Positions 34,172-56,174 of a DNA stretch of 64,000 nucleotides are shown here, piece after piece. The translations under genes and the position numbers were made by a program. Below the pieces are notes generated by a model. The model did not search any database. It was not told the origin of the DNA and worked only from the letters and a program-made list of their open reading frames with translations. The stretch comes from Desulfurococcales archaeon (GTDB taxonomy: Archaea; Thermoproteota; Thermoprotei_A; Sulfolobales; Desulfurococcaceae), in NCBI GenBank assembly GCA_015520735.1, contig WAPN01000006.1, forward strand, positions 1 to 64,000, written 5' to 3'. Numbering within the stretch: position 1 is the stretch's first letter; each line of letters starts with the position of its first letter.

Positions 34172-34843
34172 TTATACCGCTCGATACACAAGCACTACTT
34201 CACCAGTCATATGATCTACTTGTATCGATTCCAGCTTTAGCTCGATTATTCTATCGAGCTCAATATTTATCAAGGGTGTGCCGTTTAGTCCTATTATTTT
34301 CGGGGACAAACTCACGATCATTTCATCAACTAATCCCTTGATGACAAGTTCTCCGATCAATTTTCCACCGCCCTGCACGAGTACTTTGCCCACACGGTAT
34401 TTCCTGTAAAGCACCTCTAAGGCTTCGTCAAGATCAATCCTATTCGTTTCGTCAAGGGGCCGGAGAAACTCTAATATGATACCATTTTTATACAATTCTT
34501 TTGCTTTAGGAGTCCCAACAAATTTTGATGACGTGAATATTATGGTTGGTAATATCCTTGTGTCTAGTACTTTAGCGCTTGAAGGTATTGCTAGATTCCC
34601 GTCAATGATCACCCGATACGGCCTCTTTCGAGTAGCACCTAGAGGCTTGGGGGCCAATATGGGATCATCAATCAATACTGTATTAGCTCCGACCATTACT
34701 GCGTCGACATTTCTGCGTAGATAATGCATTCTCTCCAAATCCCTATAGGAACTCAGAAGTGTTCTCTTCCCCCTAAATCCGATCCGGCCATCAATTGTTT
34801 GTGTAACAAATACTATGATATAAGGCCTAGTAACAGTCTTCAT
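34172..34843 (-). CDS. RibD C-terminal-like pyrimidine reductase (ArfC)
   Basis: Stand-alone reductase of riboflavin synthesis (2,5-diamino-6-ribosylamino-pyrimidinone 5'-phosphate reductase), about 223 residues. DHFR-like fold: IIVFVTQTIDGRIG at the N-terminus, then LRRNVDAVMVGANTVLIDDP near 43-62, RVIIDG near 77, and VLVQGGGKLIGELV near 151-164, the NADPH-binding stretch. No deaminase domain is fused, as is usual in archaea. The ATG at 34843 is preferred over 34867. The other rib genes are clustered at 52.6-54.9 kb. Confidence 0.9.
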   Translation of the reverse strand: MKTVTRPYIIVFVTQTIDGRIGFRGKRTLLSSYRDLERMHYLRRNVDAVMVGANTVLIDDPILAPKPLGATRKRPYRVIIDGNLAIPSSAKVLDTRILPTIIFTSSKFVGTPKAKELYKNGIILEFLRPLDETNRIDLDEALEVLYRKYRVGKVLVQGGGKLIGELVIKGLVDEMIVSLSPKIIGLNGTPLINIELDRIIELKLESIQVDHMTGEVVLVYRAV

Positions 34844-34928
34844 TATATCATTACACCTAAGAACCATAGTATAATTAGTGGGTTTTACCCTATTTTTGTA
34901 TTGGAGAAAACGGGTTAAGGTGAACTAT

Positions 34929-51403: not shown

Positions 51404-52603
51404 GTGATTGACCTGCGTATCCTTACCGCTGGTATGATATTCATTATTCTCGTAACATGTTTACTCGGTACGAGCATAAATTATGCTGTTAGTTATGAAT
51501 CTATAGCTATCCACGTAGAACTACTTGATGGGGCACCATTACCAAATGCAACTATATTGCTTATTCCCAGTAGTGATATTATGCATATCTACACAAACAC
51601 CACCAATGCATCTGGCATTTCAGTATTCAATATACCGTCACCATTATCAGGTAACCTCAAGATCCATTTAACGATAGAATACAATATATATGGGATCATC
51701 TATGACGGTGAGAAAACTATCAACACTACATCGCGAAGTAAACACATCATCTATATTAAAATTCCATACACGGTACTTAACAAGGAAATAAGAATCACCG
51801 ATGAATACGGTGAAAACGTATCTGGTCATGTAACTCTAACATTTAATCAAGTACATCTACTTAACGTGAACTTCAGTAATGGTATAGCATTGATAAACGG
51901 CAGAATAGGTAAACAAGTGCTCTTATGGTCCAACAATACATTGTTTCAGAATAAATACATGTTACAGGTCATTATCGGCAATACTTCGGCAAGCTTTGAA
52001 GGTGTACCAAGTAATATACATGTTGATATAAGGCCTCCAAGAATTAAGGTGCTAGAAATCACGGGAAGATATTGTCCTTCGCTTGGAATAATCCATGTAG
52101 AGCTTAGGCTTATTATCAGGGATGGGATATCAACGTCTAAGAACATAGTTAAGGCAATAATATTGCTGGAACACTGCAATATTGGTAAATGCATATTCAA
52201 ACCGGGAATCAAAACCTCGTTGGGTGGTCAAAATTATTCACAGTACATGAGCATCACAATATGGTACAATATTCAGCAAACATACTTTGTAGGGAGAAAA
52301 ACAGTCAACGTTAGCTTTATAGTATCAATAGGGGATCCGGGCAACCATCGTGTAAACATTGTTAAACATGTTATCGTGCATTTAAATACGGCTACGCCAT
52401 CAAATACTTTAAGCCCGGCGAGCCCTATAATGAGCTCTCAGAACGGCTCAACTACTATCATAAGAACAGTTAATGGAGAAGAAGGAGCTATAGCTAGTAG
52501 TGCCAGTCTTCTAAACTGGATCACCAAGAATATAGGTATTATTGTGTCGGCAACAATAGCGTTTATTGTCCTTATACTTGAAGCTCGCTATCATAAAGAA
52601 TAA
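51404..52603 (+). CDS. Membrane-anchored extracellular beta-sandwich protein
   Basis: A 399-residue protein: N-terminal signal (about 4-27), a carboxypeptidase-regulatory-like or Ig-like domain (LDGAPLPNATILLIP near 40-54), more beta-rich extracellular parts with many glycosylation sequons (NTT, NAS, NVS), a Ser/Thr/Pro linker near 335-370 and one membrane helix (about 378-395). Likely a surface protein. GTG start after CTGGTG. Its 3' end overlaps the convergent gch3 by 32 bases. Confidence 0.65.
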   Translation: MIDLRILTAGMIFIILVTCLLGTSINYAVSYESIAIHVELLDGAPLPNATILLIPSSDIMHIYTNTTNASGISVFNIPSPLSGNLKIHLTIEYNIYGIIYDGEKTINTTSRSKHIIYIKIPYTVLNKEIRITDEYGENVSGHVTLTFNQVHLLNVNFSNGIALINGRIGKQVLLWSNNTLFQNKYMLQVIIGNTSASFEGVPSNIHVDIRPPRIKVLEITGRYCPSLGIIHVELRLIIRDGISTSKNIVKAIILLEHCNIGKCIFKPGIKTSLGGQNYSQYMSITIWYNIQQTYFVGRKTVNVSFIVSIGDPGNHRVNIVKHVIVHLNTATPSNTLSPASPIMSSQNGSTTIIRTVNGEEGAIASSASLLNWITKNIGIIVSATIAFIVLILEARYHKE

Positions 52604-53282
52604 GGAATCTCCTACACCTGTTTGTCCTTATATCACTCAATGCTTTAGCCGATAACTCGAGAGCCTTACGTGAATTCAATGATACGCCCACACCAGCCTT
52701 AAGATATGTTGGTAGAAGCTCCAATAGATCATTAATGGCATCTGTACTTAACACGGCGATCATATTGTCTCCGCCCAAATATCCCGTAATGCCTCCAAGA
52801 CGAATAGTAGCTCTAGTTATCTCACTATAAACACTCATAATCTTGACATATGTTTCGAACACACTAGTCTGAATAGTTGTTCTCGTTATATTGTTGAAAT
52901 CTATGTGAACCACAGCCAAGGGTTCATCGTCACCACTAATATACACTAGTTTCTTATCTTCTTTTTCAGCTATTCTGCTTGCCATCAGCTGTGCTGTGAA
53001 GGGTCTCTTATGCACCAGTGATACTATCCTCACACCCTTCGGGGAAAGCGGCTCAATATCTGTCAGTATTTCTTCAAGATCTTTTTCTTTAAACCCATTA
53101 CTGAGCGCTATGAAGTAATCGTATCTAACTGGTATGACGAAACCTCCTCTCCTAGAAAACATTCTCTGCAGACTTGAGTAGATATTAGATTGTAGCTCCT
53201 GTATCTTCCACTCCCTATCATAGCCTAGTGTCTCCGTCCACTCTCTGTACTCTAATAATTTTATGAGCGTTATACGGGGCAA
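52572..53282 (-). CDS. gch3: GTP cyclohydrolase III
   Basis: First step of archaeal riboflavin (and related) synthesis: converts GTP to the formylamino-pyrimidine phosphate (FAPy). 236 residues with the GGDEF-like fold of this enzyme; MPRITLIKLLEYREWTETLG at the N-terminus, VRYDYFIALSNG near 53-64, the acidic VHIDFNN near 123-129 and the GGDNMIAV motif near 168-175, where the GG-DN replaces GGDEF. Last gene of the ribB-ribC-ribH-gch3 operon on the minus strand. Confidence 0.92.
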   Translation of the reverse strand: MPRITLIKLLEYREWTETLGYDREWKIQELQSNIYSSLQRMFSRRGGFVIPVRYDYFIALSNGFKEKDLEEILTDIEPLSPKGVRIVSLVHKRPFTAQLMASRIAEKEDKKLVYISGDDEPLAVVHIDFNNITRTTIQTSVFETYVKIMSVYSEITRATIRLGGITGYLGGDNMIAVLSTDAINDLLELLPTYLKAGVGVSLNSRKALELSAKALSDIRTNRCRRFLILYDSELQV

Positions 53283-53308: not shown

Positions 53309-53767
53309 TTACTCAACGATTATGGTCTCATCATCTCTTAGCTCTATTTCACCGAGTTTCTTTGTTCTTAATATCATCTTCACAACGGCTTCTACGGCTC
53401 TTCTGGCATAGTCTTCAATCCTCTCCATTGCCTGCATTCTTGTTGCTCCAGGCCCAATTATACCTAGTCCTACTGGTTTTCCATACTCTATCATTAGATC
53501 CATTATTTTCCTAGCTGTCTGGCCCGCCACTAATTCGTCGTGCTTTGTTTCCCCCTGTATTACTGCACCGAGAGCCACTATTCCGTCAAGCTCTTCTCTT
53601 TCTAGTAGTTTTTTCACGGCGAAAGGTATCTCGTATGTTCCAGGAACTTTTACTACGATGGGCACTTTTATGCCGAGGAATTTCGCATGATTTATTGCTT
53701 TCTGAAGCATTAGATAAGTTATATCATAGTTAAATTCTGCCACGACGATACCTATCTTTACATCCAT
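53309..53767 (-). CDS. ribH: 6,7-dimethyl-8-ribityllumazine synthase
   Basis: Condenses the pyrimidine with dihydroxybutanone phosphate. 152 residues. Family motifs: [12 protein letters not shown] near 6-17, [16 protein letters not shown] near 40-55, [14 protein letters not shown] near 65-78 with the catalytic His, and [14 protein letters not shown] near 100-113. The ATG at 53767 begins MDVKIGIV. It sits between ribC and gch3 with short spacers. Confidence 0.95.
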
Positions 53768-53793
53768 TGCAAACACACCCTATATCTTAAGTC

Positions 53794-54264
53794 CTACAAT
53801 TTAAGCGGGCCCACATCGGGCCTACCTTGTCTAAGTCCATGCCCAGCATATCTTGTAAGTGCTTCTCGCCCATGTCTAATTAGTTTTACAAGATTTAAAG
53901 CATGTTCCATTGCCCTGTTCTTAGCGATCTCAAGGAGCTCATCCGGATTTTCAGCTTCATCCTCATGTACTGTCACGTCAATAATGTGTTTGCCAGTCAT
54001 GATCTGGAGGATTATGAGACCCGTGCTCATGGCTAGGTAGCTGTACTTATCAACCTGTTTGGCTCCAACCCAGCCCAAGGTTATGACCGCCTCACATCCT
54101 TCGTTCATTATAAGATTCCTAGCAGCCACTGGTATGTCTTTGATGCCGGGAACAGTGTATCTTATTATCTTTGCCTCAGGCAGATTTTCTTGGATAACTT
54201 TTATGGCATATCTCGCCATATCGACCCTTGAAAAGGTCGTGTCGACAACGCCTATTTTAATCAT
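53794..54264 (-). CDS. ribC: Riboflavin synthase, archaeal type
   Basis: Joins two lumazines to give riboflavin; the archaeal enzyme is related to lumazine synthase. 156 residues. KIGVVDTTFSRVDMARYA near 3-20, TVPGIKDIPVAARNLI near 36-51, VITLGWVGAKQVDK near 60-73, and the C-terminal TRYAGHGLRQGRPDVGPLKL in line with the family. The ATG at 54264 overlaps the ribB stop by 8 bases (ATGATTAA), so translation is coupled. Confidence 0.94.
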   Translation of the reverse strand: MIKIGVVDTTFSRVDMARYAIKVIQENLPEAKIIRYTVPGIKDIPVAARNLIMNEGCEAVITLGWVGAKQVDKYSYLAMSTGLIILQIMTGKHIIDVTVHEDEAENPDELLEIAKNRAMEHALNLVKLIRHGREALTRYAGHGLRQGRPDVGPLKL

Positions 54265-54943
54265 ATAGGAAGCCCCTCTTCTCAGCCTCCGTAATGATAT
54301 CGAAGCCGTTGATGAAGAGCAGACCATTCCTCCTCGCAAATTTTCGTGCGTCTTCGTAGGGCAGGCTTATTCCCTCAGCGAGCATTTCCGCTATAACCAT
54401 GCTGGGGGTTAAACCCGTAATCAGGGCAAGGGATGTTGCGAGCTCCGTGTGGCCCCGCCTATTCGCTATTCCTCTCGATGTTAGCAATGGAACGTGCCCT
54501 GGAGCGTAAAACTCTCGCTTGAATGTTTCGATCGCTTCTGTGCCAAAGCCCTTATACACTAGTTCTGCAACTTTGTGGAGACGCTTAATCGTTAATGCTT
54601 TATCATTATCATTTATTCCCGTCTTGGTATCTACATGGTTCAACCACAGATTAAAGGCCGGGGGATCACCATATCTGGGCCTCCTAACACTAATTTCTCG
54701 TAGGACAGGATGTTTTGATAGAAGCTCATTCATGAACGGTAATTGAAGCGTTTCCCTGAACTTACTACCAGATACAAAGCATATTAGTCCTCCAGCGTTT
54801 TTCCTCAAATAAGTTATTTTCTTAGAGTCTATTATTCCTGCATAGAATATCATATCAGTCTCAGCTTCTCTCTCAGCACTATCAAAAACTAAGACAGGCT
54901 TACCCGAAAGGAGCTCGTTTCTAACAACTATCCAATCAACCAA
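54257..54943 (-). CDS. ribB: 3,4-dihydroxy-2-butanone-4-phosphate synthase
   Basis: Makes the four-carbon unit from ribulose 5-phosphate. About 228 residues from the TTG at 54943; longer readings to 55108 run into the divergent gene and add unlike sequence. FDSAEREAETDMIFYA carries the acidic active-site loop (DSAEREAE...D), and GHVPLLTSRGIANRRGHTELA near 150-172 holds the conserved RxGHTE. In most relatives the loop is DSxxREGE; here Gly is Ala. First gene of the riboflavin operon. Confidence 0.9.
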   Translation of the reverse strand: MVDWIVVRNELLSGKPVLVFDSAEREAETDMIFYAGIIDSKKITYLRKNAGGLICFVSGSKFRETLQLPFMNELLSKHPVLREISVRRPRYGDPPAFNLWLNHVDTKTGINDNDKALTIKRLHKVAELVYKGFGTEAIETFKREFYAPGHVPLLTSRGIANRRGHTELATSLALITGLTPSMVIAEMLAEGISLPYEDARKFARRNGLLFINGFDIITEAEKRGFLYD

Positions 54944-55088
54944 GCCTGATACACCATTAGGATTCTGTTCTATAGTGTGTTTAGGGTACAGTAATAATAA
55001 GGTATTCCTGCCCAGATTACTTTTTGGGCGATGAAGATTCCTAGTCCAGACCGATGGAGGTGAGGAAGGGATCTCCGGCACAGAGCCC

Positions 55089-56174
55089 TTGATCATAAAT
55101 CTCGACAAGATACTTGTGGGAGAAAAACTGGATGTGATCGAACATGCCTACATTCAGATAGAAGACGGTGTAATAACGGATATCGAGCAGACATGGTCAC
55201 CGGACGGGTTAAACATTGGTGGGATCGCTTTACCTCTCCCTGTTAATGCACATGTGCACTTAAACGACTATGTTGCTCCGGAGTCCTGTATAGGTTATGA
55301 TCTAGCATCATTTGTAGGGAGCAAAGGAATAAAATTACCTATTACGCGTCTGTTAAGACATAAATTCGTTGATAACCCATTGGCCAGGTCAATCAGTATA
55401 TACTACGCCTTAGCTGATTTCCAAGAACACAAAGATTATTGCAGAGAAAACAAGGAACTCATAGAAAAAAACGGACCTAGATATCTGGGGCTTTCCAGGC
55501 CCTTTAATCCACTTGATACAGTAGAATACGATGATGTAGCAAGAATTTGCGATGGTATAGGGATATCGAATCCATTGAGAATACCTCCATATGTTATGGA
55601 GGAAATCTCCCGTCTTTCCCTCATATGTCCGGTCAGTGCACATGTCAGCGAAACAAGGCGGATGGAGGAAAGAGGTAGCCTTCACTATCTTTTGAATTAT
55701 AGAGTGAAACTAGTTAGTGTTGTACATGGTATTTTTCTTAAAAAATGGGAGCTCAGACAGCTAGCAGAAGAAGATATACCGCTTGTGGTCTGCCCACGTA
55801 GCAACTTATGGTTTATCGGAAGAATGGCCGACATAGCTACCGCTCTCAAAGAAGGAGTTACCATAGCTTTGGGTACAGATAATGCAGGCTGTTTCCACCC
55901 AGATATTTTTGCCGAGATGGAATTGTTATTCACAATATATAGAGGGAATATTGATGCACGCGAAATTGTCAAAATGACCTTTATTAATGGTTACAAAGCA
56001 CTAGGCACATCGCCAAGATTTATAGATGTCAGACAGCCAGCTGATATGCTAGTGTTGAGAGAGCCTAGACTCGCCAGATATTCATGGAACGTGTACGGCT
56101 CGATCATTAGAAGAGGATCTTATTGCAATAAACTCGTTGTACGTGACGGGGTTATTATAAAGAGTTTTAACTAG
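55089..56174 (+). CDS. Amidohydrolase of the deaminase group, beside rib genes
   Basis: A 361-residue zinc amidohydrolase. The full metal and catalytic set is present: HVH at 55-57, His185 and Glu188 in HVSET, His213 in VVHG, and Asp264 in LGTDNAG. The H-x-x-E pattern and the PRSNLWF region near 236-242 place it with the cytosine/SAH/atrazine-type deaminases that act on C=N bonds of heterocycles. Start TTG at 55089. It is divergent from the ribB operon, suggesting a riboflavin-path role: either the unassigned archaeal pyrimidine deaminase or the deformylation step. Function is inferred from motif and place only. Confidence 0.8.
   Translation: MIINLDKILVGEKLDVIEHAYIQIEDGVITDIEQTWSPDGLNIGGIALPLPVNAHVHLNDYVAPESCIGYDLASFVGSKGIKLPITRLLRHKFVDNPLARSISIYYALADFQEHKDYCRENKELIEKNGPRYLGLSRPFNPLDTVEYDDVARICDGIGISNPLRIPPYVMEEISRLSLICPVSAHVSETRRMEERGSLHYLLNYRVKLVSVVHGIFLKKWELRQLAEEDIPLVVCPRSNLWFIGRMADIATALKEGVTIALGTDNAGCFHPDIFAEMELLFTIYRGNIDAREIVKMTFINGYKALGTSPRFIDVRQPADMLVLREPRLARYSWNVYGSIIRRGSYCNKLVVRDGVIIKSFN

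Follow-up and report, generated by a model that had tools for sequence, protein, structure and literature searches.

A 64,000-nucleotide stretch of DNA from a Desulfurococcales archaeon (the start of contig WAPN01000006.1; here called the window) carries an amidohydrolase gene, X, next to the genes of riboflavin synthesis, and the question is which reaction its product catalyses. The route from GTP to 5-amino-6-ribitylaminouracil takes five reactions: those of ArfA, ArfB and ArfC, a deamination and a dephosphorylation. The initial annotation of the locus proposed X as a candidate for the missing deaminase of archaeal riboflavin synthesis, which is supported by the co-occurrence, the gene linkage and the missing RibD domain described here. 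X is very probably the pyrimidine deaminase of the archaeal flavin and deazaflavin pathway. This prediction draws on the family, the catalytic residues, the modelled fold, the operon linkage, the co-occurrence with GTP cyclohydrolase III (GCH III), the missing RibD deaminase domain and the operons for the deazaflavin F0; we infer the reaction, the substrate, the order of steps and the roles of the residues.

The locus and the protein

The open reading frame of X starts with a TTG codon and encodes 361 residues, the N-terminus of which aligns with those of homologues. X had been described as divergent from ribB-ribC-ribH-gch3, and all four of these minus-strand neighbours were identified by profile (see the table). 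The ribB reading frame as listed (54257-55108, minus strand) overlaps X, yet the ribB profile begins only at residue 62, which places the true ribB start probably at the TTG at 54943. The frame is open for ∼55 codons upstream of this TTG, and automatic annotation could create a false overlap with X. The gene for an ArfC-like reductase lies ∼20 kb from X in the window and adjoins it in other lineages; ArfC catalyses the pathway step that neighbours the deamination. A creatininase-family (ArfB-type) gene is found at about 183 kb on the same contig (L204:4778-5470, minus strand), the only gene of this family found in the window genome. Its product matches the ArfB model weakly (29.7 bits, cut-off 180) and scores higher as MftE-like (67.6 bits); the ArfB assignment in this lineage is provisionally made at the family level.

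Features of the X locus in the window (positions are those of the whole stretch)
Feature	Position	Strand	Basis
X, PRK07213-family amidohydrolase, proposed diaminopyrimidine phosphate deaminase	55089..56174	+	profiles, alignment, AlphaFold2 model
Divergent intergenic region X/ribB	54944..55088	.	∼145 bp; ribB start inferred from profile alignment
ribB	54257..54943	-	PF00926 7.6e-43; NF004437 over cut-off
ribC, archaeal riboflavin synthase	53794..54339	-	TIGR01506 218 bits, over cut-off
ribH, lumazine synthase	53309..53776	-	TIGR00114 over cut-off
GTP cyclohydrolase III (ArfA, gch3)	52572..53282	-	PF05165 8.5e-43
ArfC-like reductase, RibD C-terminal domain only	34172..34867	-	TIGR01508 7e-39, below curated cut-off

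X is a real protein, a COG0402-type (ATZ/TRZ) amidohydrolase with a Pfam match to Amidohydro_1. Its top NCBIfam match is the archaeal family PRK07213 (NF005552), to which X belongs and whose name, ‘chlorohydrolase’, covers no tested function. The match (119.7 bits, E = 1.3e-34) falls below the curated cut-off of 294 bits but leads the next COG0402 family (1e-34 versus 9e-14) and every named deaminase by a wide margin. Judged by these profiles, the X of the window is a divergent PRK07213 relative for which PRK07213 is still the best family. All 43 aligned members of the X family match PRK07213 (best 1.6e-102), as do all four archaeal controls at E ≤ 1e-50 (M. jannaschii, H. volcanii, S. acidocaldarius and M. 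acetivorans), while no bacterial control has a match at this level. With the X-family profile, a gap between the weakest member (1.6e-31) and the strongest non-member (4e-28) splits the family from its paralogues.

Residue conservation was assessed in an alignment of 43 homologues (23 at first) from 15 families of the window's phylum. The initial annotation ascribed to X every catalytic residue of the heterocycle deaminases, and the residues that it named (H55-x-H57, H185-x-x-E188, H213 and D264) are present and invariant in 43/43 sequences. P49, D60, K82, E113, G262 and N265 are equally invariant, and R237 (41/43), N239 (42/43) and R342 (40/43) are nearly so. The X of the window deviates at two residues common in the family (W274 to F and P247 to A), which we list as points against the deaminase reading. 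In three COG0402-like paralogues from the window genome the metal and proton-transfer residues are retained, whereas D60, K82, E113, R237 and N265 are absent, so that these paralogues do not have the TDN, K82 and R237 signature of the X family.

The AlphaFold2 model of X has a pLDDT of 92 and a pTM of 0.92. Among solved proteins, TM0936 is closest to X in sequence (E = 2e-6; the fold alignment gives ∼22% identity), and the model matches it with E = 1.7e-18 and a TM score of 0.78-0.82. Other nearest folds are adenosine-type deaminases, triazine hydrolases, guanine deaminase and the isocytosine-specific deaminase Vcz. The COG0402 deaminases (TM0936, an SAH deaminase; Vcz; guanine deaminase) have the fold, metal site and chemistry in common with X, but at 13-22% identity in fold alignments and with different substrates. 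Guanine and isocytosine deaminases take the 2-amino group off a 2-amino-4-oxopyrimidine, a unit that is also contained in the substrate proposed for X.

X might instead be an ordinary SAH/MTA/5′-deoxyadenosine or guanine deaminase that lies near rib genes by chance, as could be suggested by nearest solved homologues that are TM0936-like and adenosine deaminase-like. The identity to these is only ∼20%, however, and separate paralogues of this kind, without the five residues named above, are present in the same genome. The NCBIfam models for SAH, MTA and 5′-deoxyadenosine deaminases give X at most 51 bits, against cut-offs of 522-779 bits. Close identity to any SAH or guanine deaminase that has been characterised, which the initial annotation had asked to be checked, was thus not found. 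Together with the distribution and gene order of X, given below, this makes an ordinary deaminase extremely unlikely.

Distribution and gene order

We compared the occurrence of X with that of the riboflavin genes in 250 genomes of the window's phylum, each at least 90% complete. X and GCH III are both present in 103 genomes, X alone in three, GCH III alone in none and neither in 144; for X and ribH the corresponding counts are 103, three, three and 141. The association of X with GCH III has a Fisher p of 1e-67 over genomes, a value inflated by relatedness, and of 4e-10 over families; this tracking of GCH III argues against the ordinary deaminase. The co-occurrence with gch3/ribH in genomes without a RibD deaminase domain, for which a check had been proposed, is therefore almost one-to-one. 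The same is seen inside single families: in that of the window, three genomes carry X together with GCH III and nine carry neither, and f23 and f27 are likewise split, with X and GCH III present or absent together. A GCH III match in one of the nine (G131; 6e-4, below the cut-off) was taken as spurious. Among the three X-positive genomes without GCH III and ribH, one is probably incomplete and two are F0 producers (G017 and G097). A ribH-type protein with neither GCH III over the cut-off nor an X-family member occurs in G149, G164 and G037; the first two, from one genus, also have no ArfB- and ArfC-type matches, and the G037 assembly has 7% contamination. One contig (L056; JAFMDM010000036.1) labelled ‘Euryarchaeota archaeon’ groups with the window's phylum and is probably mislabelled.

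The creatininase family (PF02633) has the same distribution, being present in 34/34 X-positive representatives of the phylum and in 0/6 X-negative ones. This bears on whether X could be the formamide hydrolase of the second step, the creatininase-family protein having another role. Amidohydrolases can split amide C-N bonds, and the weak ArfB score of the creatininase homologue in the window genome would also be in keeping with such an exchange. On the distribution of PF02633, however, we mostly reject a deformylase. Both the HxH…HxxE…H…D layout and the closest fold matches are typical of ring deaminases and triazine hydrolases, and the deamination would be left without an enzyme. Moreover, archaeal ArfB has been characterised biochemically (Grochowski 2009, as cited in PMC9478397), and M. 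jannaschii, for which ArfB is named in PMC13028884, also has a PRK07213 protein. We consider a formamide hydrolase very improbable.

In many families X lies in same-strand operons with ribB, ribC, ribH, gch3 and/or arfC. The order is ribB-ribC-ribH-gch3-X in f4 (Sulfolobus/Metallosphaera-type genomes), ribB-ribH-gch3-X-arfC in f10, f38 and f42, and arfC-gch3-ribB-ribC-ribH-X in two of the three f3 genomes examined; in G018, from f3, a creatininase-family (ArfB-type) gene is convergent just downstream of X. Shorter arrangements are X-arfC (f8, f19, f27 and f32) and arfC-X (f30). Of the two f6 genomes, G083 has gch3-X, and among the f15 genomes examined G196 has ribC-ribH-X and the rest show no linkage. 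The window's family has X divergent from the ribB-ribC-ribH-gch3 set. At least one genome with X linked to pathway genes is thus found in 13 of the 15 families, and close linkage was not found in f2 and f23. In a simple model with families taken as independent, adjacency in at least 12 of the 15 families would arise by chance with a probability of ∼1e-22, a further argument against an ordinary deaminase placed near rib genes by accident. As the arrangements differ between families, the linkage has been formed or kept repeatedly. The view that the genomic place of X fits riboflavin synthesis was borne out in each context test run.

The step in the pathway

CofG and CofH convert 5-amino-6-ribitylaminouracil to the deazaflavin F0 (CofH is also so described in NCBIfam). 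Two genomes have a same-strand X-arfC-cofG-cofH cluster (G017, L188, 9743-14030; G097, L192, 9555-13771) and no matches to ribH and GCH III; a search in both for the GTP cyclohydrolase feeding the F0 pathway found none. Upstream of the cluster lies a dUTPase-like gene in G017 and a DUF447 flavin-reductase-like gene in G097. In two further genomes, G109 and G115, arfC-X converges with a cofG-like gene and cofH. The window genome, in contrast, has no match to cofH, and X appears to be used there for riboflavin only. Occurring both in F0 operons that lack ribH and GCH III and in a genome that lacks cofH, X almost certainly acts in the segment common to riboflavin and F0, before 5-amino-6-ribitylaminouracil. 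Since X is not homologous to ArfA, ArfB or ArfC and is present in the same genomes as these, and since its enzyme class fits a deamination, the deaminase is the reading that we adopt.

The RibD N-terminal deaminase domain, plant PyrD and yeast Rib2 carry out, in the same pathway, the kind of reaction proposed for X, but have the cytidine-deaminase fold, which is unrelated to that of X; X itself has no match to a RibD-type deaminase domain (PF00383 or the N-terminal part of TIGR00326). No RibD model match over the cut-off was found in the 250 genomes, and the match in those X-positive genomes that were listed spans the reductase part only (∼118-342 of 343), leaving the deaminase part unmatched. 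No protein matching PF00383 was found in the window genome, which is 99.77% complete, or in 11 of the 34 further X-positive genomes, several of these being single-contig assemblies; the controls M. jannaschii and S. acidocaldarius have no match either. In these organisms no cytidine-deaminase-fold enzyme was found for the deamination step. A PF00383 protein is present in 23 of the 35 X-positive genomes and could in principle deaminate there. Another deaminase in all such genomes, the presence of which would have spoken against the initial annotation, was not seen, PF00383 being missing in 12 of the 35 with the window genome included.

The absence of PF00383 is also relevant to the phosphatase for 5-amino-6-ribitylaminouracil 5′-phosphate (EC 3.1.3.104), a step that is likewise in the shared segment and without an assigned archaeal gene, and which X might catalyse instead. 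Genomes without PF00383 would then have no deaminase, however; the COG0402-like structures and NCBIfam models that X matches best belong to deaminases and to enzymes hydrolysing C-N or C-Cl bonds, not to phosphatases, and the ArfC-X pair of reductase and deaminase mirrors the RibD fusion. A phosphatase is accordingly highly unlikely.

As the pyrimidine deaminase, X would most likely act on the product of ArfC, 2,5-diamino-6-ribitylamino-4(3H)-pyrimidinone 5′-phosphate, and hydrolyse its 2-amino group, giving 5-amino-6-ribitylamino-2,4(1H,3H)-pyrimidinedione 5′-phosphate and ammonia; that reduction precedes deamination is known from M. jannaschii. By analogy with the usual COG0402 mechanism, one divalent metal bound by H55, H57, H185 and D264 would activate a water molecule that attacks C2, with E188 protonating the ring nitrogen and H213 and D264 handling protons. 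The ribityl phosphate may be bound by the basic residues K82, R237 and R342, which are specific to the family. X would be a non-homologous replacement for the cytidine-deaminase-fold domain that bacterial RibD carries. We lean towards a broader reading in which this amidohydrolase, unrelated to RibD, PyrD and Rib2, is the ancestral archaeal deaminase for both riboflavin and F420, acting after ArfC, with some lineages keeping X only for deazaflavin and another GTP cyclohydrolase replacing GCH III.

Earlier predictions

A 2021 review (PMC8305020) marks three steps of riboflavin synthesis in H. volcanii as gaps and names candidates for two of them, both taken from Rodionova et al. (2017): HVO_1235, a candidate arfB, and HVO_2483, with 34% identity to MJ0699; EC 3.1.3.104 is left open there. 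By elimination in the review's table, HVO_2483/MJ0699 is the deaminase candidate of 2017. Like X, it was proposed to fill a gap in the riboflavin pathway of archaea, and the strong PRK07213 matches in M. jannaschii and H. volcanii indicate that MJ0699 and HVO_2483 probably belong to the X family. The initial statement that no gene is assigned to the step therefore stands for experimentally proven genes but not for predicted ones; the deaminase hypothesis is right in substance and, as an idea, not new. No experimental report of an archaeal deaminase for this step was found in the literature outside subscription papers. What is added here is the near-perfect co-occurrence, the breadth of the operon evidence, the lack of a RibD-like alternative in many genomes and the argument from the F0 operons, the F0-only genomes being a natural experiment that places X before the branch point. 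A database prediction thereby becomes a sharply testable case, with an enzyme, a likely substrate and model operons, and would, if true, be another instance of unrelated folds serving one vitamin step in different domains of life. In a 2026 review (PMC13028884), the later steps of the archaeal pathway are still simply said to be conserved with bacteria.
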